Assembly: GCA_018302465.1 (NCBI GenBank)
Contig: JAGVZQ010000004.1
Location: 1-55,023, forward strand
Length of the DNA: 55,023 nt
Direction of reading: 5' to 3'
Source of the DNA: Candidatus Woesearchaeota archaeon
Lineage (GTDB): Archaea > Nanobdellota > Nanobdellia > SCGC-AAA011-G17 > GW2011-AR20
Shown here one piece after another: positions 1 through 46,391 of this stretch. Position numbers and translations under genes: made by a program. The notes below the pieces were generated by a model. It was not told where the DNA came from. It did no database searches and was given only the letters and a program-made list of their open reading frames with translations. How positions within the stretch are numbered: position 1 is the first letter of the stretch; each line of letters opens with the position of its first letter.

Positions 1-28
1 TAAGCTATTATGTTACTATCTATAAAGT

Positions 29-283
29 TCATCTAAACATACCCTCATTTAAAATATCCATCTGCTCAGCTGTAAGGTTATTTTTAGGTTTCAACTTAGT
101 TGTTTTCTTAAACATTTCTTCTAAATCATTCATGTCAACTTCTCTAGAAGACCTTAAAAACAGCCCTTTATCTTTTTCAATAAATACAACCCTATCTCCC
201 CCCATAAAGCCATATTTTTTTCTAAAGATTTCAGGTATTGTTACCTGTCCCCTTTCAGTTATTTTAGATATTTCAAATTTCAT
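29..283 (-). CDS. SpoVT-AbrB family antitoxin/DNA-binding protein (start MKFEISKITERGQVTIP; partner probably off the left edge)
   Basis: AbrB motif 'ITERGQVTIPEIFRKKYGF'; ATG at 283 directly follows a palindrome and TATA-like region, so the longer annotated start is unlikely. Confidence 0.8.
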   Translation of the reverse strand: MKFEISKITERGQVTIPEIFRKKYGFMGGDRVVFIEKDKGLFLRSSREVDMNDLEEMFKKTTKLKPKNNLTAEQMDILNEGMFR

Positions 284-292
284 AGTAAGAAT

Positions 293-310
293 AATAAGAA
301 TTTTCTTATT
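293..310. promoter_or_regulatory. Palindromic operator AATAAGAA-tt-TTCTTATT between TATA-like region and AbrB start
   Basis: Perfect 8-bp arms, 2-nt spacer, about 10 bp upstream of ATG. Confidence 0.55.
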
Positions 311-496
311 TATAAAATTTTCTAAAGGATCAAGCTTCCTCAATATTATCTTTAACTCCAGATTAAGTTATTTAATTATCACTACAAGAAACAAAATATC
401 TGAATATTTGTAGCTATAACTTATTTTATGGTAAAATTAGCACAAGAACTGTAAAAAGAAAGAAATAACACAGACCGGGGAAATTTTTATATATAT

Positions 497-715
497 TTAT
501 GCTTCCTCTACTTTAATACAATCAACAGGGCAGACTTCCTCAGCTTCTTTATTATTGCCTATATCTTTAACTATTTTATTCTTAGCTATAGCTTTAATTT
601 CTCCCTTAAACTCTCCACTAGTCTCCTCTTTAACCTCAAAATTTTCAGGACAAGTAGCTTCACAAGCTCCACATCCTATACAAGTAGCTTTATCAACTTC
701 AACTTTATATGGCAT
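497..715 (-). CDS. 4Fe-4S ferredoxin
   Basis: CIGCGACEATCP ... EVCPVDCIKVE. Confidence 0.9.
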   Translation of the reverse strand: MPYKVEVDKATCIGCGACEATCPENFEVKEETSGEFKGEIKAIAKNKIVKDIGNNKEAEEVCPVDCIKVEEA

Positions 716-733
716 CTTAACCTCTTACCAGAA

Positions 734-937
734 CTATTGAACAATCTTTATCTTAGGCTTGCCACTATCTCTTAAATTTCTTAGTTCAAAATCTTTAATA
801 TTATTTTTTTTAGCCCATTCTTTTGCCTTTTCTTCAGACTTGAATGCCCTTGGTTTCGTTCTTTTGGCTCTCCTTATATGCTTTATATGAGTAGCTGTAT
901 ATAATCTCCTTTTAGCCCTGGTATGTATTTTTTTCAT
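734..937 (-). CDS. Small basic conserved-looking protein, unknown function
   Basis: 67 aa, Lys/Arg-rich ORF with promoter-like upstream region. Confidence 0.6.
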   Translation of the reverse strand: MKKIHTRAKRRLYTATHIKHIRRAKRTKPRAFKSEEKAKEWAKKNNIKDFELRNLRDSGKPKIKIVQ

Positions 938-978
938 ACTACTCTACTTATTAGTATGGTTTTTAAAGCTTTTTATAG

Positions 979-1069
979 ACTATATGTAAGGGAAAGAATT
1001 AATAATAATTGTTTTCATCAACCATGCGCATTTGAACATTATTAATGGAAGCTTTGTTTTGGAAGCTAA
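979..1069 (-). pseudogene. 3'-end remnant (scar 1) of the 3206-4222 gene
   Basis: 1022-1069 is identical to 3269-3316 (48 bp); similarity extends to about 979 with a few mismatches and one 1-bp deletion. Confidence 0.85.
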
Positions 1070-1653
1070 CCGGCAGTTTCAACAATTTTGTTATATATTT
1101 TTTTTGGATATTTTCTAGCATAATTTATTAACTTTTTTTTGTTTATTCTTTTTTTAAATTCTTTTAATAAACCTTTATCTATTTTTTGCTTGAAATAAAT
1201 TAAATCTATAAATGTTTTTTCTATATCTGAAACAGGAATATAAATATTTCCTTCTTTTGTATAATCGATGCCAAAGAAATACCTTGGAGAAATCCTATGT
1301 AGCATTACATTATTTTCATTTACACTTCTAATCCCCTGTCTTATTTTCCCTGTTGTTATAATGATAGGTATTGTTTCCTGTTCCCATAGATTGTGAATAC
1401 TTAATGCTGATTGCAATCCTATATATGATGGCTTAAAACAGAATACTGATATGATAGGATCATCATTTATGGAATAATAGCCTCTTGTTACCCTTTTAAT
1501 CTCTCCCTTGTTTATCATATTATTTATCATTAAATATATATATTTTTCATTTCCGTTTTGTTTTTGTATAAATCTCTTTAAGGAATTTATATCTACTATA
1601 TTATTCTTTTTGAAGAAATTTCTTATATCCTGAATATACTTTACTTTACCCAT
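1066..1653 (-). CDS. AbiEi-type antitoxin/transcriptional regulator
   Basis: N-terminal wHTH, AbiEi-like 'GYYSI...PSYIGLQSALSIHNL...'; paired with AbiEii-like NTase. Confidence 0.75.
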   Translation of the reverse strand: MGKVKYIQDIRNFFKKNNIVDINSLKRFIQKQNGNEKYIYLMINNMINKGEIKRVTRGYYSINDDPIISVFCFKPSYIGLQSALSIHNLWEQETIPIIITTGKIRQGIRSVNENNVMLHRISPRYFFGIDYTKEGNIYIPVSDIEKTFIDLIYFKQKIDKGLLKEFKKRINKKKLINYARKYPKKIYNKIVETAG

Positions 1654-2282
1654 CTTTCAATATAGTCCAACATATTTTTTGTTGTTGGCGTGACTCCCGT
1701 GATTATTATTGCTTTAAGATTTTGTTCATCTGTTGAGGGTTCAAATTTCTTAATAAAATCTTTTAATTTTTCTTTTATTTTTTTGTTTTCTTTAATATAT
1801 CTTAACAAGAAAAAGAGGTCATATAAATCCCTTATTTTCTTTCTTTCTATGTAAGTATTTATTTTTTCTTCAACTAAATCATCGGGAGATAATGTAAAAA
1901 TATTGATTAGATTTCCTTCTGAAGTTTCATATTCTTTTAGGAAAGGATTTTTTATTGCTTTGAATAAAGCTTCAAATCTCACAATGGATGTATTAAATTT
2001 TAATGTTGAATATAAAGAGTTTTCTTTTATCCTTTTTTTGCTGACTGAAAACCCATTTTTTTCTAAAGTTAAAAATAAGGCGTTTATTTTTTCTGTATCT
2101 TTTTTGATATACATATCTATATCTTCTGAGAACCTATTCCCTTCATAGCACCTCCAAATCGCTGTTCCACCATGAATCACCGCACTTGGAAAAAATTCAT
2201 ATATAGTTTCCACTATTAAATCTTGGGCATAAGCTATATCCTTGTGTATTTTTCTTTTAAGTTTTAATTGTATTGGTAACAT
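1641..2282 (-). CDS. AbiEii-type nucleotidyltransferase toxin
   Basis: 'VIHGGTAIWRCYEGNRFSEDIDMYI' NTase motif. Confidence 0.85.
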   Translation of the reverse strand: MLPIQLKLKRKIHKDIAYAQDLIVETIYEFFPSAVIHGGTAIWRCYEGNRFSEDIDMYIKKDTEKINALFLTLEKNGFSVSKKRIKENSLYSTLKFNTSIVRFEALFKAIKNPFLKEYETSEGNLINIFTLSPDDLVEEKINTYIERKKIRDLYDLFFLLRYIKENKKIKEKLKDFIKKFEPSTDEQNLKAIIITGVTPTTKNMLDYIERWVK

Positions 2283-2331
2283 ATTGATTAACCTAAATTA
2301 TATATATCTATAAGTTTGGTTTATTTATATA

Positions 2332-2387
2332 CTTTTCTATTCTTTCATCGAACCATATGCATTTGAATAGAGTTAATGGGAGCTTTA
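2332..2387 (-). pseudogene. 3'-end remnant (scar 2) of a divergent paralogue of the 3206-4222 gene
   Basis: Minus strand encodes KLPLTLFKCIWFDERIE vs KLPLIMFKCAWFDENNYFE; 2332-2345 'cttttctattcttt' identical to 3211-3224 downstream flank. Confidence 0.75.
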
Positions 2388-2684
2388 TATGCCAGATTCT
2401 ATTTCTTTGTTGAGATCTTCTATAGAGTACTCAGATTTGTAACCGTGTTCAACTAAGTACTGTTCCATCTCCCATATTGTTGTTTCCGCACGATGTGATG
2501 CTTCGGATAATGTTATTTTTCCCTCTTTGTATTTTTGAGCCATCTTATTTTTTATTAAATCCTTATATCCAATAAACACTAATTTCCTGATTATACTGCT
2601 TCTATCAGTTATCTCTTCCTTGCTCAAGCTTTCTATTTTCTTCAGAAAGTCTGTACTCAACCTTATTCCTATTGCTTGATTCAT
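2385..2684 (-). CDS. UPF0175-like antitoxin (RHH-type N-terminus)
   Basis: 'GIRLSTDFLKKIESLSKEEITDRSSIIRKLVFIGYKDL ... LSEASHRAETTIWEMEQYL'. Confidence 0.7.
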   Translation of the reverse strand: MNQAIGIRLSTDFLKKIESLSKEEITDRSSIIRKLVFIGYKDLIKNKMAQKYKEGKITLSEASHRAETTIWEMEQYLVEHGYKSEYSIEDLNKEIESGI

Positions 2685-3178
2685 TTTTCAACCTCCAGGT
2701 TTATTTGATCCAGCACAACATTGGAAAACCAGCCAATTTTCCTTAGCCCTGAGATGCATTCTTCTACTTTTTTCTTATCTATCAATTTTTTCTTATAAAG
2801 TTTTATTATAATTGCAGGTGTTCCTATTATATTTATTTCCAGTAATAATTTCTTTTTTCTTACATTATCATCATCTGTGGCTATAACCTCCGCCTTTTCC
2901 TGCCAATAAAGTGCTATTGCTTCAGCTTCCCCTCCTTGTATATTGAATTGATTAGCTTTTTTGATAAGGCCTTTATTCTTTATCTTCCTGACACTTATCT
3001 TTTTTTCTTTGATTAAATTTATTATTATAGGAACTTCTGGAAATTTTCTTTCTTTTCCTTTAATAATCTCTTCGTACACTAATTCTGGAATAGCAGCTTC
3101 TTTAAAATAAACACAGCTTTTTTCTAATATTGATAATTTGGCCAAATGGATTAAAACCATGCTATCTTTTATTATCAT
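2681..3178 (-). CDS. DUF3368-like PIN toxin
   Basis: 'IIKDSMVLIHLAKL ... GGEAEAIALYWQEKAEVIATDDDNVRK'. Confidence 0.8.
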   Translation of the reverse strand: MIIKDSMVLIHLAKLSILEKSCVYFKEAAIPELVYEEIIKGKERKFPEVPIIINLIKEKKISVRKIKNKGLIKKANQFNIQGGEAEAIALYWQEKAEVIATDDDNVRKKKLLLEINIIGTPAIIIKLYKKKLIDKKKVEECISGLRKIGWFSNVVLDQINLEVEK

Positions 3179-3205
3179 TGTATTATATTGTGCACATTGT
3201 ATTAT

Positions 3206-4222
3206 TTAAGCTTTTCTATTCTTTACTACATGCAGCGGAAAGAATTCAAAATAATTGTTTTCATCAAACCATGCGCATTTGAACATTATTAATGGAAGCT
3301 TTGTTTTGGAAGCTAATGCTAAAGCATAGATTGTTAATTGATGAATTGGATTTTCTTTGTTAGCATTAGGCTTGTAATCTAGGATGTGGATTAAGTTGTT
3401 TCTTATTTGCAGAATATCTATATGTCCTGTTATTGGAGTTTTGAAGTCTTTTGAATTTAAATTAAAACTTCTTGAATTAAAATATAATAAATCATCATGA
3501 GTTAAATATATTGGTATTTCTGCTGCTATTGTTGTTGAATCATTAATTATAAAAAAATCCTGAACTGATTGATGCCTGTCTTTATTTGTTTTTGCCAAAT
3601 TTAATGCTAGTTTTGTTAATCTGTTTGCCAAGTTTTGTTTACTTAAAGGATTAATGGTTAATGTTTTAAAATCTGTCTGTGATGCCCTGTCTGATTTTTC
3701 CTTTATTTCATGATTTGGCTTGAAAATATGATGCGGAAATTCTTTTGTTGAGATTTTTTCTAAATATAATTTTAATCTTTGGAATTTTTCGTTGTTGTTT
3801 GTTAAATAATTTAATTTGAAATTGTGAATTTGATATTTGTAATTTAAGTTGTTGTGGAGGAATTCGCAGCTTGAAATTAGCTCTTCTGGAGAAAATTGCA
3901 CCTTTGCTTCTTTTTTTAACCTGTTGAAAGTTGTAATAGTTTTGAATTCGTTGATCCAGTTGGAGATTGTTTTTTGAGACGGTCTTGGAGTTGTTTTTAA
4001 TAGTTTTTGTATTCTTGTTTGGGAATAACCAAGATTATACAAAGAAAGGGTCTTTAGAATTGTTTGGATAGGGTATGTTTTTTCCTTTAATGGCTGTTTG
4101 GTGAAAATGTTACTGCAGTTTTTGCATTTATATTGTTGAATAATCTGTTGCTGGTTTTTTCTTGTTCCCTTCTTTATTATTGTTCCAGAGTCACATTTAG
4201 GACAAATTATTTTTTCTTGCAT
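3206..4222 (-). CDS. InsA-like zinc ribbon + HTH fused to a RecB/Cas4-like PD-(D/E)XK nuclease domain
   Basis: CPKCDSG-X15-CKNC zinc ribbon; HTH 'LGYSQTRIQKLLKT'; 'TGHIDILQIRNNLIHILDYKPN...QLTIYALALA' nuclease core. Confidence 0.7.
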   Translation of the reverse strand: MQEKIICPKCDSGTIIKKGTRKNQQQIIQQYKCKNCSNIFTKQPLKEKTYPIQTILKTLSLYNLGYSQTRIQKLLKTTPRPSQKTISNWINEFKTITTFNRLKKEAKVQFSPEELISSCEFLHNNLNYKYQIHNFKLNYLTNNNEKFQRLKLYLEKISTKEFPHHIFKPNHEIKEKSDRASQTDFKTLTINPLSKQNLANRLTKLALNLAKTNKDRHQSVQDFFIINDSTTIAAEIPIYLTHDDLLYFNSRSFNLNSKDFKTPITGHIDILQIRNNLIHILDYKPNANKENPIHQLTIYALALASKTKLPLIMFKCAWFDENNYFEFFPLHVVKNRKA

Positions 4223-4283
4223 TAACTTATCTTATTTTGAACATATTTTTTAAGAATTTATGTTGATTAATGTGTATTTTAGG

Positions 4284-4331
4284 TCATGAGAATTACTAGA
4301 ATTTGGCAGGATTTTGGCTGAAAAGGCTTAA
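4284..4331. repeat. Imperfect copy of the region downstream of the LamG gene
   Basis: 'tcatgagaattactagaatttgg..attttggctgaaaaggctta' resembles 5314-5390. Confidence 0.55.
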
Positions 4332-4333
4332 TT

Positions 4334-4528
4334 TTATGGTTTCCGCTTAATCTCCAGGTAAAATTTTGTAGAAATTTTAGAGTTTCTTGCATTTTTTATT
4401 TGTGAATTAATCAAAATATTCTGTTGTTTACTCCAAACCTTGTCTGGATTTTTTTTAACAAAGTCTGCCCAATAGTCTACAAAATTTATTCTATCTTCTT
4501 TATTGGTTTTACCGGGTTTAAGTCTCAT
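4334..4528 (-). CDS. Small partner protein of NTase module, unknown
   Basis: Overlaps the 3' end of the upstream NTase ORF by 11 nt. Confidence 0.5.
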   Translation of the reverse strand: MRLKPGKTNKEDRINFVDYWADFVKKNPDKVWSKQQNILINSQIKNARNSKISTKFYLEIKRKP

Positions 4529-5144
4529 TTTCTATTAATTTTTTATACTTTCTTATTTTATCATAACTCAGCTTATCTTTAAATAGTTTCTCTAGATGTC
4601 TTGCATCTTCCATGTCCTTGTCCGATTTCAGGCAATATTTTTTGAAAGCAATTTGTCTTTCCAAAGAAGATATTTTTAAATCTTCTTTCCCAATTATCAC
4701 CTTAATTCTGTCTTTGAAAGATTCTTTTTGTGACTTCTTTAAAGCGAATTTTACTTCCATATTTGGAATTGTTTCTTTGCTTTTTGCAAATCTCACTCCT
4801 AAGTTATTCTTTAGATAATCGTATATTTCTTTTTCATCTTCTGTGTTTAAACACCAAAAATTAGCTTTTTTTAATTCTTTGTATAACTTAATGAAAACTT
4901 CTTTATCTAATTCTTCTATAAAAATATCTATATCTTCTGTTGCTCTCGACCTCCCCAAAAGTATAGATACATATCCGCTAATTATAACATAATCTGAGTG
5001 TTTTTCTAATACTTTGATGAATTTTATCACAAATTTATCTAATTCATTTAATTCCTTATCTAGTTTTATAGTGTTGTTTATAAATTCCATTTCTTCCTTA
5101 TTATCTATTTTTGAGTTATATAAATCTTTAGACATTTTAATCAA
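4518..5144 (-). CDS. Nucleotidyltransferase-fold protein (TA-like)
   Basis: 'DYVIISGYVSILLGRSRATEDIDIFIEELD'. Confidence 0.75.
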   Translation of the reverse strand: MIKMSKDLYNSKIDNKEEMEFINNTIKLDKELNELDKFVIKFIKVLEKHSDYVIISGYVSILLGRSRATEDIDIFIEELDKEVFIKLYKELKKANFWCLNTEDEKEIYDYLKNNLGVRFAKSKETIPNMEVKFALKKSQKESFKDRIKVIIGKEDLKISSLERQIAFKKYCLKSDKDMEDARHLEKLFKDKLSYDKIRKYKKLIENET

Positions 5145-5313
5145 TATATTGTTGGGAGACTATCTTAAATGATTTTAAATTTCTTAAATTAAAATTATAA
5201 TTTGATAGTTAAGCTTTATAGGTGTTAAAACGTTTGATATATTTTAAAAAAACAAGATTTTAAAAAAATATTGAACAAAATAAGGGATTAAGTAATGAAT
5301 ATTACTGGGAAAA

Positions 5314-5390
5314 GTCATGGAAATTACTAGTAATTTGGATCATGAATATTACTAAGAATTTTGACTTGTTTGGGCTAGGAAGGCTAAAGA
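5314..5390. repeat. Copies of the 'tcatgRaWattactaRgaatttKg' motif upstream of the NTase module
   Basis: tcatggaaattactagtaatttgg and tcatgaatattactaagaatttt in tandem; third partial copy at 5294. Confidence 0.55.
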
Positions 5391-5406
5391 ATGGGGTTTG
5401 GGGGGT

Positions 5407-7074
5407 TTAATTACTCCGATTAATAATCAAAAAGCTTCCAGAATTAATTATTATCTTATCCCCTGAACCATCAAGAATTAACTGGCTTATTGTTAAATTG
5501 CTGTTGTTCAAATAAATCTTAGCGCCTACTTTTACAGTTAGATTAGAGTAGCTTGAAACATTATTCAAAAAATGAATATTAGTATTATTTCCTGCAGTAG
5601 CGCATCCATATTTAGACTCTAAATTCCCAGCACAAGCAAAACCACAGCTGTTTGTTCCTGAAGTGCTGTTATAATTTGAATTTAAAGGTTTGTTTGTACA
5701 TGTATTCTGTGTTGCTGAAGTAGATCCAGCAGTGCAGTAATAACCTACTGTGCATGCTCCATTACATGTAGCTGCTGTTTGGCTTGTTGAGCTTCCATAA
5801 TATCCTGCTGAGCATTGCCCGGTGCATGCTGAAGTAGTCAATGTTGTAGTTGAGCCGTAAGTTCCTGCAGGACATGCTGTAGCACTTGAACTTCCTGTTG
5901 GGCAATACTTGCCAGTTCCACAAACATTCTGTGTTGCTGAAGTAGATCCAGCAGTGCAATAATAACCTGCTGTGCATTGTCCATTACATGTTGCTGCTGT
6001 CTGCCCTGTTGATGAACCATAATATCCTGCTGTACATTGCCCATTTCCTGTTGAAGCTGAGTTTGTTGTTGTACTACAATAATATCCTGCTGCACATGCA
6101 TATCTTGAATTATCATTATCAGGACTGTAATATCCTGCACCTGCTACTGAACAAGTTCCTGACTGACAATTATAATAGCCAGCATTTCCTACACAATCTG
6201 ATAATGCATCTGATGTTGTAGCTCCAGCTGTATCTGAATTTGAGGGACAAGCATATCTACTAGGATCATTAGTTGGAGAATAATATCCATCACCAACATT
6301 AGTACAACTATCACTAGATAAATACTGTCCAGCCCCACAAAGGGGATTCATTCCAGACCCGCTGTTATATAAAGAACTCACTTCAGCAGCAGTTAAAGCT
6401 TTATTCCAAACTGCAACTTCATCAACTGTCCCTTGAACCCAGAATGTGTTTGGGGGAGCCCATGTAGCCGAAACATAATTAGTATGGCTCAAATTTGAAA
6501 CTGGAGCAGTTGCTGCCTGTGAGGCAGAAGCTACATTGTTTTTATACACAATCATATTAGTACCATCATAAGTCCAAACTACATGTTGCCATGAACCATA
6601 ATCCACAATGAAGTCTGTAAAAACTTTCCAGTTACTATTAGTATTATAATAACCATAATTATCATTAGCACCCTGATCAGTTATTGCAAAAACATACGAG
6701 AGGCTATTTGCTAAATCACCTCTAAAGAAAAGCCCTTGATAATCGATTGTATCCGTCGGTTTAATCCAAAGGCTAACACTCATTGATCCAGTAATAGCCA
6801 AGCTTGAGGAAGACATTGAAATATAATCACCATCCCCCCCAAAACTATAGCAGCCTCCCCCCAATTGACAGTCTGTGGTTGTGTAGGTAGCCCCACTAGC
6901 TGACCCATGAATACTACCATAATTATCATTTGCATTGCTATCATACGACCAATATGAAAGCAAGTTAGTAGTCAAAGCACCTTCAACAGTTCCAGCAAAA
7001 AACAAAGATAATAAAATAACAAAAGTAAGTAAAATTAACAAATTACTCTTATTAATAAGATTTATTTTAATCAT
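5407..7074 (-). CDS. Secreted LamG-domain protein with Cys-rich GCC2/GCC3-like repeats
   Basis: Signal peptide; LamG 'GLVLSYWSYDSNANDNYG-type ... VDEVAVWNKALTAAEVSSLYNSG'; repeated CxAGYYCTAGSTSATQNxC units. Confidence 0.75.
   Translation of the reverse strand: MIKINLINKSNLLILLTFVILLSLFFAGTVEGALTTNLLSYWSYDSNANDNYGSIHGSASGATYTTTDCQLGGGCYSFGGDGDYISMSSSSLAITGSMSVSLWIKPTDTIDYQGLFFRGDLANSLSYVFAITDQGANDNYGYYNTNSNWKVFTDFIVDYGSWQHVVWTYDGTNMIVYKNNVASASQAATAPVSNLSHTNYVSATWAPPNTFWVQGTVDEVAVWNKALTAAEVSSLYNSGSGMNPLCGAGQYLSSDSCTNVGDGYYSPTNDPSRYACPSNSDTAGATTSDALSDCVGNAGYYNCQSGTCSVAGAGYYSPDNDNSRYACAAGYYCSTTTNSASTGNGQCTAGYYGSSTGQTAATCNGQCTAGYYCTAGSTSATQNVCGTGKYCPTGSSSATACPAGTYGSTTTLTTSACTGQCSAGYYGSSTSQTAATCNGACTVGYYCTAGSTSATQNTCTNKPLNSNYNSTSGTNSCGFACAGNLESKYGCATAGNNTNIHFLNNVSSYSNLTVKVGAKIYLNNSNLTISQLILDGSGDKIIINSGSFLIINRSN
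5703..5972. repeat. Intragenic tandem repeat in LamG/Cys-rich gene
   Basis: 'attctgtgttgctgaagtagatccagcagtgcaRtaataacct' at about 5704 and 5930. Confidence 0.85.
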
Positions 7075-7231
7075 CCTCTTTTTTAAATAAAAATAAATAT
7101 ATTCAGTTCCTTATATAGTTTATTATAATGGGTTTTGTAACTTTCAAAGTTGATAAACATGAAAAGGTATAGGTGAATACTCTTCTCTTTACCCATATAT
7201 GTTTTTTTCATCTTCTCCATTTAACAACACA

Positions 7232-8479
7232 TTATTTTTCCAAAAGCAGCCATTTCCATAATGGGATGAATTTTACTGTTCCTTCTTCAACTTTGATTTC
7301 CTTTTCTTCGTTTTTTGTTATTAAAATGCCTTTTTTAACTTTAAATTTTTTCATGAATTCAGTTATGGATTTTAAATCCTCAAATCTTATTTTTTCCTGA
7401 TATTTGACTTCAATAGGCATATTGTCATGCACAACATCAACTTCATTTCCATTTTTCCAAAAAGAAACAGCTTTAAGATTGTTTATAACAACAGTCTCTG
7501 CCATTTTTCCAAAAAAGTCTTCTTCAATTTTTGGTTTGTATAGGTAAGTTAAGGCATTATCAGTAGGATATGCTCTTTTTCTTTTTCTTAAAGTTGTGCT
7601 GCCTTTTCTATAGTTTCCTAATAAATTTATCAAGAAACTTTCTTTTAAGTAAAAAATATAATTTTTTATTACTCTTCTGTCTTTATTGAATTGCTTGCTT
7701 AATGACAAATAGTCTATATACATTCCAGGGTTTGAAGCAATTAATTCTAAAAGTGTACTTAAAAATTCAGGGTCATCCAATTTAAACATTCTTGGTATGT
7801 CTTTATACACAATTTTATCTACAACTAAAGCTCTTATGTACTCTTTAAATTCCTTATCGCTTTCAAAAGAAAATGTTTCAGGAAACCCTCCTTTTTCTAT
7901 GTATTTTAATAAAAAGGGCTTGATTTTTGTTTCGTACTTAAATTCTTTTACTTTATTTATCTTTAGGTATTCTCTGAAAGTGAATGTGCTTAGATTAAAT
8001 TCAAAAATTCTTCCAGCCAATGTTTCTTTTGTTTTTTTCCTTATAAATAAAGATTCAGAGCCAGATATTATAAATTTAAGTTTTGGGTATAAGTCATAGT
8101 ATTTTTTTATTTCATTTTCCCAATTACCGCATTTTTGTATTTCATCGAGGAAGATGTAAACTTTTTCTTCCCTAAAATCTTTCTTGTGTATCTCTTTATA
8201 AATTTCTATTACTTCCCCTATTTTTATGATGTTTTCATCAAATGAAATGAATAATATATTTTCAGTATTTACTTTTTTATCTATTAAATTTTGAATAAGC
8301 TGGTATATAGTTGTGGTTTTTCCTACTCTTCTTAATCCCGTAATTGCTACTATAAATTTCTTATCTATATATTTTTCTATTTCTTTATAGCTATCTCTTT
8401 TAAATGGTAAGGCTAGTTCTGAATCAACCTTGCCTTTAATCCACCAATGATTGAATTCTTCCAGTTTGACTTTTTCCAT
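7232..8479 (-). CDS. AAA_14/DUF4143 ATPase
   Basis: Walker A 'AITGLRRVGKTTTIYQL', 'YIFLDEIQKCGNWENEIKKYYDLYPKLKFIISGSES'. Confidence 0.9.
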   Translation of the reverse strand: MEKVKLEEFNHWWIKGKVDSELALPFKRDSYKEIEKYIDKKFIVAITGLRRVGKTTTIYQLIQNLIDKKVNTENILFISFDENIIKIGEVIEIYKEIHKKDFREEKVYIFLDEIQKCGNWENEIKKYYDLYPKLKFIISGSESLFIRKKTKETLAGRIFEFNLSTFTFREYLKINKVKEFKYETKIKPFLLKYIEKGGFPETFSFESDKEFKEYIRALVVDKIVYKDIPRMFKLDDPEFLSTLLELIASNPGMYIDYLSLSKQFNKDRRVIKNYIFYLKESFLINLLGNYRKGSTTLRKRKRAYPTDNALTYLYKPKIEEDFFGKMAETVVINNLKAVSFWKNGNEVDVVHDNMPIEVKYQEKIRFEDLKSITEFMKKFKVKKGILITKNEEKEIKVEEGTVKFIPLWKWLLLEK

Positions 8480-8666
8480 TTTTATATAAATACATCAGAA
8501 TGTACATATTTATAAACTTTGTGGTCATCAGAATGTACATATCTTAATCTCATATAAAGGGAAACTTTTACAAATTATTTCCCTTTATATAATACCTATT
8601 TTATATGTTTCAAAACGTACATATTTTCAATTAAAATAAATGGTATTTTCAAGATTTATCCACTTT

Positions 8667-9248
8667 CTATAGCTCTTTATACAAGAACAAAGCCCAGCCA
8701 TTTCCCCCATTGCATTTATCTGGACAACCAGCAACCGCCCCTCTTAATTTATCTCCAGTATTCAACCCATTTAAAACAGAGCCATAAGTAGCATCATTCA
8801 GTTTAGTATCAACCTCCTTGCTTCCAAAAGGCAAGTATAATTCAACCGTATCTCCTTCTTTTATCTCATCATAATATGCATTCTCATCTCTTGAATAAGA
8901 AATAACTTTATCTACTTTTATTTTTACATACTCTTTATTATCTTTGTTTACAACATCTAAAACAGTAAATTCTATTTCTCCTGAATCAGAAGCAGAGGGT
9001 ATTAAAACCTGTGTATTCTGATTAGTTACTTGTGTGTCTTGGTTGGTTATTTGCTCATTTCCTACTTCCTTTACCTCATATTGAGAACTATCACTTGAAA
9101 TAGGGTTTTTAATATATTGACAACCTGAAATAAAGAAAACAAGAACTAGGATAACTAAAAAAACATTCCCTTTCCAAATTCCCCCTTTATCTTCCATTTC
9201 ATGTTTTTCTTTCGTGAACGTTTCTTTTTTAAAGAAAGGTTCAGTCAT
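8667..9248 (-). CDS. Putative membrane-anchored lipoprotein-like protein
   Basis: Hydrophobic segment followed by 'FISGCQ'. Confidence 0.5.
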   Translation of the reverse strand: MTEPFFKKETFTKEKHEMEDKGGIWKGNVFLVILVLVFFISGCQYIKNPISSDSSQYEVKEVGNEQITNQDTQVTNQNTQVLIPSASDSGEIEFTVLDVVNKDNKEYVKIKVDKVISYSRDENAYYDEIKEGDTVELYLPFGSKEVDTKLNDATYGSVLNGLNTGDKLRGAVAGCPDKCNGGNGWALFLYKEL

Positions 9249-10368
9249 GCCCTAAAACCAATGCATTTCCATTGTCATAAACATAACCCTTGCCAAAATA
9301 AATTCTTGTGTTGCTTCCAACACTTACATTTAACTGCCCATTAACATGTAATACACTGCTTGGTGTTGTAGTATTAATACCAACATAACCATTACTTCTC
9401 CCATCAACGTATAACCTGTTATTACCAACAGTTAAGTTATTAGCTATAGTAACATTGCCACTAAATACATTACTCTGGTTAGTTAAAGCTAAATTAGTAT
9501 AACTCATTCCGCTTATGCCAGTCAAACCAGTCCCAGATCCAACAAATGAAGTAGCAGTAACAGTTCCTGTAACCCCAACATCACCTGTCACATTCAAGGC
9601 TGAACTTGGACTTACAGTTAATATGCCCACCCTATTATTCACACTATCAACATACAAAGTTCCGCCATCTACAGTTAAATTCTCTGTAATGGTAATATTG
9701 CCGCTAAATGAGTTACTCTGGTTGGTTAAAGCTAAGTTGGTATAAACCATACTACTCACCCCAGTTAATCCCGCCCCAGATCCTACAAAAGCATTAGCAG
9801 TAACAATTCCAGTAACTCCAACATCTCCAGTTACATTTAAAGCTGATGTGGGGTTAGTAGTTCCTATGCCAACCTTACTTAAAAAATATCCAGTAACTCC
9901 AAAAATATTATTCCACCACCCGTTAGAGCTCTGTCCTAAATTCAAAGTGCTATTTGTTGTAGGAACAAGAGAAGTTGAGACATTTACTTTATTTAATGTA
10001 ACATTCCCAATTCCTGCCTGGAATCTTTGTCTCTCCTGACCTTGAAAGTCCAAATCTGTCCTGTTTAAATAAACTTCCATGTAATAATCACTTCCATAAG
10101 CTAAATTTAGTTGTTGAACGCCAGAACCAAGCATAATATCTATTTGTCCATTAGAAACATTTTTAAGAAAATCATTTGTTGAGTTATAAATTAAATTTCC
10201 GCCAGAAGCAGCATCATATATCTCAACAACAACATCACCTGCTCCAAAGTTATTGCCAGAGCCATCTTTCACATTAGCAGTAAAAGACATTAAATCAGCA
10301 TAAACTGGAAGAGATAACACTATACCAAATAGTAGAACAACAAATAATTTTTTAATATCTATCACCAT
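9241..10368 (-). CDS. Secreted repeat protein with tail-fibre/adhesin-like repeats
   Basis: Signal peptide; repeated 'SALNVTGDVGVTGTVTATSFVGSGTGLTGISGMSYTNLALTNQSN'. Confidence 0.65.
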   Translation of the reverse strand: MVIDIKKLFVVLLFGIVLSLPVYADLMSFTANVKDGSGNNFGAGDVVVEIYDAASGGNLIYNSTNDFLKNVSNGQIDIMLGSGVQQLNLAYGSDYYMEVYLNRTDLDFQGQERQRFQAGIGNVTLNKVNVSTSLVPTTNSTLNLGQSSNGWWNNIFGVTGYFLSKVGIGTTNPTSALNVTGDVGVTGIVTANAFVGSGAGLTGVSSMVYTNLALTNQSNSFSGNITITENLTVDGGTLYVDSVNNRVGILTVSPSSALNVTGDVGVTGTVTATSFVGSGTGLTGISGMSYTNLALTNQSNVFSGNVTIANNLTVGNNRLYVDGRSNGYVGINTTTPSSVLHVNGQLNVSVGSNTRIYFGKGYVYDNGNALVLGHD

Positions 10369-45167: not shown

Positions 45168-46391
45168 ATGGTAGATAACGACATATACAACAATAAGCAG
45201 TACTGGGATAATTTTGTAGAAAGGGTAGACCAGTTAATTATCCCACCAGAGAGAAGAACAAAAAATTATAGAAGCAAATATTATATAAAAAATCCTAAAA
45301 ACTTAGGGTATTTTAAAAAATTAATACAAAAGTTTGAGGCTCAGGATTTGAGTTATATTAGAAGAAGGCGCATGAGGGATATTTTTCTTTTTGTTTGCTA
45401 TCATACAGAAAATGACCTTAAAAGTTTAGATGAGAATGATATTGAGAGGATAGCTATTGAGATGTTTAAGACCCATACAACAATAGCAAGCCAAAGCTCT
45501 TTTATTTCCATGGCAAGAAGAATATGGAAAATATTGTTTAAAAATTCTAAATATTGGGCAGAAATCAAAGCAAGACAGGATAGAAGCAAGCAAAGGCAGA
45601 GAAAAGACAAAATAAGTCCTGAAGAATATAAAGCAATTTTTAATTATTTTAATAGAGATATTGAAATGAAATTAATTGTTTCTTTAGTAGTTGAAAGTTT
45701 ATGCAGGCCAGCAGAGCTAGTTAGCTGCAAAATTTCTGGAATAGAGGATTATAATGACTATGCCTTAATTAATACTGAAAGGGGCAAGGAAGGCATTAAG
45801 AAATTAATATGCATAGACAGTTATGCTTTTTTGAAGGAATATCTTAAAAACCACCCTCTAAAAGATAACAAAGATTCTTATTTGTTTACAAATTATTATA
45901 GGATGATTGATAGCAATATCCATCCTAAGTATATAAATCAAAGATTAAGAAGGGCTTGCAATGATTTAAAATTAGGAAAAACGATTACTCTCTATTCTTT
46001 GAAAAGATTTGGAGTAACATCTAAAAGACTGCAGGGATATACAGATAATGAGATAATTAAGACCGCTGGATGGACTTCTGGGAAACAATTAGCTACATAT
46101 GACTTATCAACTCAACAGGAAGTAATAGACAGTTTATTGGCTAAAAAAGGCATTAGGAAAGATGACGAGAATTATAATATATTGCAGAAAAAGAGCTGCA
46201 TGTACTGCGGAAAGGAGGATATTGATTTTAATGAAGATGACTGCCCTAATTGCAGAAGAAGTTTAGATATCGGTAAAATAAGGAAGCAAATGGAGATTAT
46301 GGAGAAGATACAGAATCTGCCTGAAATTGAGAAAATATTGGAACAGTTGAATAGCTTTAAGAATAAAATGGATGGTGTTGGAAATGTTTGA
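45168..46391 (+). CDS. Tyrosine recombinase/integrase with C-terminal zinc ribbon
   Basis: 'VVESLCRPAELVSCKI ... ITLYSLKRFGVTSKRLQGYTDNEIIKTAGWTSGKQLATYDL'; C-term CMYC...CPNC; RBS ggaggt upstream of ATG 45168. Confidence 0.88.
   Translation: MVDNDIYNNKQYWDNFVERVDQLIIPPERRTKNYRSKYYIKNPKNLGYFKKLIQKFEAQDLSYIRRRRMRDIFLFVCYHTENDLKSLDENDIERIAIEMFKTHTTIASQSSFISMARRIWKILFKNSKYWAEIKARQDRSKQRQRKDKISPEEYKAIFNYFNRDIEMKLIVSLVVESLCRPAELVSCKISGIEDYNDYALINTERGKEGIKKLICIDSYAFLKEYLKNHPLKDNKDSYLFTNYYRMIDSNIHPKYINQRLRRACNDLKLGKTITLYSLKRFGVTSKRLQGYTDNEIIKTAGWTSGKQLATYDLSTQQEVIDSLLAKKGIRKDDENYNILQKKSCMYCGKEDIDFNEDDCPNCRRSLDIGKIRKQMEIMEKIQNLPEIEKILEQLNSFKNKMDGVGNV

Follow-up and report, generated by a model that had tools for sequence, protein, structure and literature searches.

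Tails of a predicted nuclease gene punctuate toxin-antitoxin arrays in archaea and point to a possible route of cassette exchange

Introduction

How do toxin-antitoxin (TA) and defense genes enter chromosomes without an integrase? Tiny-genome DPANN archaea are not expected to hoard such genes, and the question is raised here by a locus of a Woesearchaeota archaeon with a genome of 749 kb (98% complete). The window, that is the whole stretch of 55,023 nucleotides that was analyzed, carries an intact gene, here termed E, which is followed on the minus strand by two predicted TA operons. Each of these operons ends in a short leftover of the 3′ end of E, termed a scar or tail. An initial annotation had likened the arrangement to islands that insert into the 3′ end of a gene while regenerating this end, and had suggested a possible undescribed route of TA capture or mobility. 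We find that such arrays recur in related archaea, pointing to a recurring way in which these organisms may collect and swap TA pairs.

Results

On the minus strand the locus starts with an adhesin-like gene, a repeat termed R, a DUF2204-type nucleotidyltransferase gene with its small partner, a second R copy and E. Downstream of E follow a DUF3368/UPF0175 pair, scar 2, an AbiEii/AbiEi pair, scar 1, a small basic gene and a ferredoxin gene. The features are listed in this order (G numbers denote the compared genomes).

5407..7074, minus: adhesin-like surface protein gene, upstream flank of the array; a homologue adjoins the scar locus of G003
5294..5407, minus: R repeat copy 1, starting at the stop codon of the adhesin-like gene (HMM/model matches)
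4518..5144, minus: DUF2204-type nucleotidyltransferase, TA-like cargo between both R copies (Pfam PF09970, 3e-4, over the cut-off)
4334..4528, minus: small ORF, partner of the DUF2204-type nucleotidyltransferase (ORF list)
4250..4346, minus: R repeat copy 2, leader of E (HMM/model matches)
3206..4222, minus: gene E, intact 338-codon ORF; predicted IS1-like Zn-ribbon/HTH head (about codons 1-110) and Cas4/RecB-like PD-(D/E)XK nuclease
2681..3178, minus: DUF3368 (PIN-like) toxin candidate (weak in Pfam; PADLOC PDC-S70, 9e-15)
2385..2684, minus: UPF0175 antitoxin candidate (Pfam PF03683, over the cut-off), stop codon inside scar 2
2332..2387, minus: scar 2, decayed E tail (KLPLTLFKCIWFDE) with an internal deletion (self-BLAST, alignment)
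1641..2282, minus: predicted AbiEii toxin, nucleotidyltransferase (Pfam PF08843, 3e-15; PADLOC AbiEii, 2e-18)
1066..1653, minus: predicted AbiEi antitoxin (PADLOC AbiEi, 2e-22), equally long in relatives, stop codon inside scar 1
979..1069, minus: scar 1, frameshifted E tail, 50 bp identical to E and the remainder about 80%
734..937, minus: small basic (ribosomal-protein-like) conserved gene, downstream flank of the array; homologues in G003, G004, G007 and G010

The initial annotation had placed E and both scars correctly in coordinates and strand, and E is intact at 4222-3206 (-). The TA assignments were likewise recovered: AbiEii and UPF0175 lie over the Pfam cut-offs, AbiEi was recognized by PADLOC and DUF3368 by PADLOC PDC-S70. 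In the AbiE pair the putative AbiEii nucleotidyltransferase comes first and its AbiEi partner second, as a candidate type IV TA gene set. ORF coordinates agree that the stop codons of AbiEi and UPF0175 fall inside the scars. An exact match between scar 1 and E is present, but it extends over 50 bp (1020-1069 = 3267-3316) and not over the reported 48 bp. In the self-BLAST of the window, scar 1 (979-1069) aligned to E 3225-3316 with 92.4% identity over 92 bp (E-value 1e-30), with every difference in the last 44 bp, and scar 2 (2343-2386) aligned to E 3259-3302 with 82% over 44 bp (E-value 1e-4), a weaker match that we nevertheless take to be real. Scar 2 reads KLPLTLFKCIWFDE and has the AAAGAATAGAAAAG flank in common with E, as had been described; compared with E, about 36 nt are missing from its interior. 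Scar 1 directly adjoins the region that contains the promoter of the small basic gene, a promoter that can be recognized in G003 and also in G004, which lacks E. Further matches in the genome to window 1121-1191 are AT-rich AbiEi sequence and not scars. The window contains no tRNA target, no Rfam family or ncRNA was matched in window 1-9500, and no Pfam family was matched by the small basic gene. Homologues of the DUF2204-type nucleotidyltransferase occur in G020 and G021, and its pair with the small ORF is also found after a scar in G020 (G020:C1).

Judged from its motifs, E is predicted to combine an IS1-like zinc-ribbon/HTH head with a Cas4/RecB-like PD-(D/E)XK nuclease. Residues 7-106 match the IS1 head (NCBIfam NF033558, 6e-9; NF050000, 1.7e-5; both under the curated cut-offs), and Pfam PDDEXK_1 matches at 2e-4, just under its cut-off. 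The PD-(D/E)XK motif residues E235, D269, D282-x-K284 and Q295..Y299 are invariant across 13 E homologues. The IS1-type DDE catalytic domain was not found in E, and the C-terminal two thirds match PD-(D/E)XK/Cas4-like nucleases instead. PF04754 (Rpn/transposase_31) did not match E in Pfam at E-values up to 1, and a PDB profile search with E returned weak zinc-ribbon matches and nothing else; an AlphaFold model built from 4 sequences was too poor (pLDDT 44) and was set aside. The nearest relatives of E are found in Woesearchaeota/Nanoarchaeota MAGs. A headless paralogue of 200-240 residues is present in nearly all genomes of the family and in many of the order, and apparently has a housekeeping role. 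Single-protein and alignment searches revealed no E in viral contigs, and hence no sign of a viral carrier.

The genomes searched formed overlapping sets, drawn from the order (103), the class (378) and a second order (200), and the 16 E-bearing genomes were searched again with a full-length E profile. Profile searches of these several hundred related genomes revealed 16 E-tail fragments in 8 genomes from 4 families: three each in G021 and G252 (one of the latter decayed), two each in the genome of the window, G018 (one weak), G019 and G102, and one each in G003 and G020. All 16 lie on the same strand as their cassettes, most are next to TA operons or genes of a similar kind, and about half coincide with the stop codon of the gene before them. 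The leftovers span the last 60-230 letters of E. The presence of the same arrangement in seven other genomes places the pattern beyond chance, and its position on the chromosome differs among these related species, of which there are at least seven. Its generic layout is adhesin, (R-TA)n, R-E-TA, (tail-TA)n, tail, conserved gene.

The array of G019 comprises E, AbiE, tail, HTH/nucleotidyltransferase, tail, a small HTH gene and a FlaG-like gene. That of G021 comprises E, a DUF4258/AbrB-like pair, a 77-codon tail, AbiE, tail, Fic and tail, and runs into a second contig with an overlap of exactly 132 bp. Other cargo at E loci includes HicBA, ParE/RelE, HEPN-MNT, PIN and DUF234/DUF4143 ATPases. 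The view that the cargo consists of TA genes holds for most cassettes, but ATPases occur as well, IS200-type transposase genes (named from sequence) adjoin the scar of G003, and two small membrane proteins sit between the two tails of G018, so that the cargo is not always TA. In the window, an ORF at 7232-8479 (-) with a P-loop motif resembles the ATPases carried as cargo in other E arrays. G189 (L101) has several TA-like modules around E and no detectable tails, so arrays without scars are possible.

Differences between the scars and their nearest E genes fall on codon positions 1/2/3 in a ratio of 57/53/146, which is near the proportions seen between E genes. The share of position 3 is 0.57, compared to about 0.45 expected if half of the change were neutral, with sites that are not independent. 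This bias argues that the scars are relics of diverged E genes and not decayed local duplicates. A diversity-generating retroelement was rejected on the substitution pattern alone, since the scar differences favor third codon positions. Furthermore, G021 combines a clade II E with clade I scars, the remains of a window-type E head lie about 1 kb upstream of the E that G020 now has, and DNA identity is 80-95% over most of E but drops sharply in the N-terminal third, even between the two E genes of one genome. Together, these data indicate that E has been repeatedly replaced and recombined. Tandem duplication of a local gene followed by decay, the alternative named in the initial annotation, is disfavored by the codon-position statistics and by the mismatch of E type and scar type in G021.

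Diverged E relics could also be left without any insertion. The main rival explanation assumes ancestral tandem E-TA units in which surplus E copies were deleted from the stop codon of the preceding TA operon to the zone of the next promoter. The third-position bias would fit diverged E paralogues, every scar indeed has a gene before it and the next promoter after it (with the stop codons placed as described above), E heads and internal pieces survive too, and a junction between E and a RhuM-like gene in G020 resembles a deletion. However, none of the 16 E-bearing genomes has two complete tandem E-TA units (the two E genes of G102 lie on different contigs), the model does not explain why all tails are short, and the junction between AbiE and its scar is common to different chromosomal sites. 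We therefore regard an origin by deletion as doubtful. A function of the tails themselves, either as an intragenic antitoxin as in Rpn or as a promoter or regulatory element of the next TA operon, appears very improbable. The divergence of the tails is coding-like, they lie directly before promoters and in Rpn genes the 3′ end codes for an antitoxin (PMC10327210), yet an internal start codon is not conserved (it is absent in the scars of G102, G003 and G018), both scars of the window are broken as reading frames and no Rfam family was matched in window 1-9500.

Both window operons had been described as breaking into E at nearly the same codons. In the sense of one constant site of insertion, this was not supported. 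Tail starts are spread over positions 269-325 of the 348 positions of the full-length E profile, so that no constant attachment site emerged from breakpoint mapping. All tails lie within about the last 95 of 340 E codons, much closer to the 3′ end than random breaks, and the start points of four minimal scars, at (F)KCAxFDE, differ by no more than about 3 codons. Three E fragments beside TA genes are not tails at all: a head in G020, a head fused to HEPN in G021 and an internal piece fused to HEPN in G252 (recognized from sequence). The junction in G020:C1 lies at a short ENP-coding stretch, a microhomology common to E and the RhuM-like ORF. The tail was also considered as a DNA-constrained att site and rejected, as the E tail has no excess of identical codons or synonymous conservation. 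With regard to integron attC sites, the scars align as coding tails of E. No recombinase lies near E, since PF00589 matches in seven E genomes are on other contigs or far from E, the nearest one in the window being at 45612. There, at 45612-46103 (+), a 434-aa open frame matches Phage_integrase with 36.5 bits; it is separate from a XerA-like gene on another contig.

In the G021 fusion (G021:C1, L150 963-1577) the first ~76 codons of E continue in frame into a HEPN-like domain, forming a natural chimera that neighbors a RhuM-like gene. G252 has no intact E, and S74-type adhesin 3′ ends are repeated there between HEPN-MNT and DUF4258-type modules (G252:C1, L105 4994-4464 and 3223-2708). The E locus is a hypervariable mosaic with E tails as its commonest scar, though not the sole kind.

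R is an element of about 110 bp with three iterons, whose letters vary together within a copy (TAGTAAT... or TAGCCA...) and which lie around a ATTACTAGTAAT palindrome (window 5294-5407 and 4250-4346 (-); L095, L035, L141). It precedes E and every TA operon on the upstream side of E. The genome of the window contains no copies besides the two in the window. The eight copies of G020 are confined to its two TA loci, three occur at the E locus of G284, and a few are found beside adhesins elsewhere. A further alternative would make E a dedicated recombination enzyme, with the head binding R or the 3′ end of E itself, the nuclease cutting, and TA-plus-tail units being inserted integron-like at the tail as attachment site. 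Most arrays contain E, R is largely confined to E loci with iterons that vary in concert, one TA-plus-tail unit recurs with the same junction, and the minimal scar starts cluster as described. This reading is nevertheless unlikely: synonymous conservation is not raised in the tail inside E, scar starts vary, head and internal fragments exist, and the repeated adhesin ends of G252 occur without an intact E. Moreover, PD-(D/E)XK nucleases are not known to rejoin DNA.

Cassette gain at the 3′ end of E could be followed at the FlaG/AbrB site, where G017 is empty and G018 and G019 are filled; these are different genera and not strains with and without each cassette, as had been envisaged. In G017 a frameshifted E ends just before the AbrB promoter and the cassette is absent. 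G018 has two tails, of which the distal one lies directly before the homologous promoter, and G019 carries two cassettes. Since the distal tail abuts the promoter exactly where the cassette-free E ends, it marks the former end of E. The proposed gain of TA cassettes at this position is thereby corroborated.

Identity values argue that E and AbiE have moved horizontally. Between G000 and G019, which belong to families f1 and f3, the nuclease part of E is 85% identical in amino acids compared to 53% for the housekeeping paralogue. AbiE is 91-93% identical between G019 and G021 compared to 66% for this paralogue, and it occupies different sites, the FlaG site in G019 and a prefoldin/glyS site in G021. 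Comparison of these two chromosomal sites shows about 90% identity across the AbiE block, beginning at its promoter and reaching into the tail behind it, and the junction codon is the same. The bodies of the tails after AbiE, in contrast, are only about 80% identical and differ mainly at third positions. We infer that a TA-plus-tail unit moved and then swapped its tail by recombination with resident E sequence.

Discussion

The repeats, the cassettes, their presence and absence at one site, horizontal transfer and the turnover of E are established. At a rough probability of one half, we favor the reading that TA-bearing DNA replaces the greater part of a resident E through host recombination and leaves its tail behind, and that E loci are hotspots of this exchange. 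The hotspot would be the E locus between surface-adhesin genes and conserved genes. TA-operon DNA, often with a new E, would come from relatives and displace the body of the resident E. The upstream junction would coincide with the end of the incoming operon or lie close to it. The downstream junction would fall within the final 20-95 codons of the resident gene, and the tail of this gene would remain before the next promoter. Later rounds would stack further TA-plus-tail units, and the repeated tails, together with the R repeats on the other side, may provide homology for exchange. The joins are probably made by host homologous or microhomology recombination, and E may assist by cutting DNA, as Rpn nucleases do (PMC5350276). 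TA genes would stay and stack because the loss of one is costly, so that addiction probably keeps the cassettes. Two observations count against the hotspot reading. The strong bias in tail length argues against random illegitimate joining without an added constraint, and a separate conversion event is needed for scar 1, where the 5′ 50 bp are identical to E and the rest is not. A further-reaching model would make E the engine of a recombinase-free DPANN cassette system, a homology-based analogue of integrons in which the head reads R, the nuclease opens the locus and TA genes are swapped via R and the tails; we hold this to be improbable.

Several known systems resemble parts of these arrays. 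Integrons, including archaeal ones (PMC9668308), share TA-rich promoter/operon cassettes, a repeated site and an adjoining DNA-processing gene, whereas E arrays have no integron integrase nearby and their repeat is the end of a protein-coding gene with a variable start. Genomic islands that enter the 3′ end of a gene, at tRNA or other att sites, and rebuild this end likewise have a displaced gene 3′ end beyond their cargo. In contrast, E cassettes lack an integrase, their cargo measures 1-2 kb, the target E turns over and breakpoints vary. Rpn nucleases (PMC5350276, PMC10327210) are PD-(D/E)XK proteins annotated by transposase resemblance and horizontally mobile, and their overexpression promotes RecA-independent recombination (PMC5350276, PMC10327210); E differs by its missing PF04754 match and its IS1-type zinc ribbon/HTH head. 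In the recombinase-free H47 island (PMC5426353) direct repeats flank the cargo and the host supplies recombination, but it is a single E. coli island, whereas E arrays are stacked around a nuclease gene. Defense and TA hotspots of phages, satellites and chromosomes (PMC9122126, PMC10250203) share variable TA/defense cargo and conserved flanks; unlike them, E arrays have E tails and R copies punctuating each cassette. TA/defense arrays punctuated by repeats are already known, and punctuation by E tails and R is a new variant. We found no description of an E-tail/R gene-capture system in the open-access literature, and a new gene-capture system it would be if E or R indeed drives the exchange. 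Gene tails as a record of successive replacements would allow the order and source of TA captures to be read. As a minor observation, an inverted repeat, GTTTGAAAAGGAAGCATTCCTTT, comes after two different tails in G021 (L088 1-23 and ~2640).
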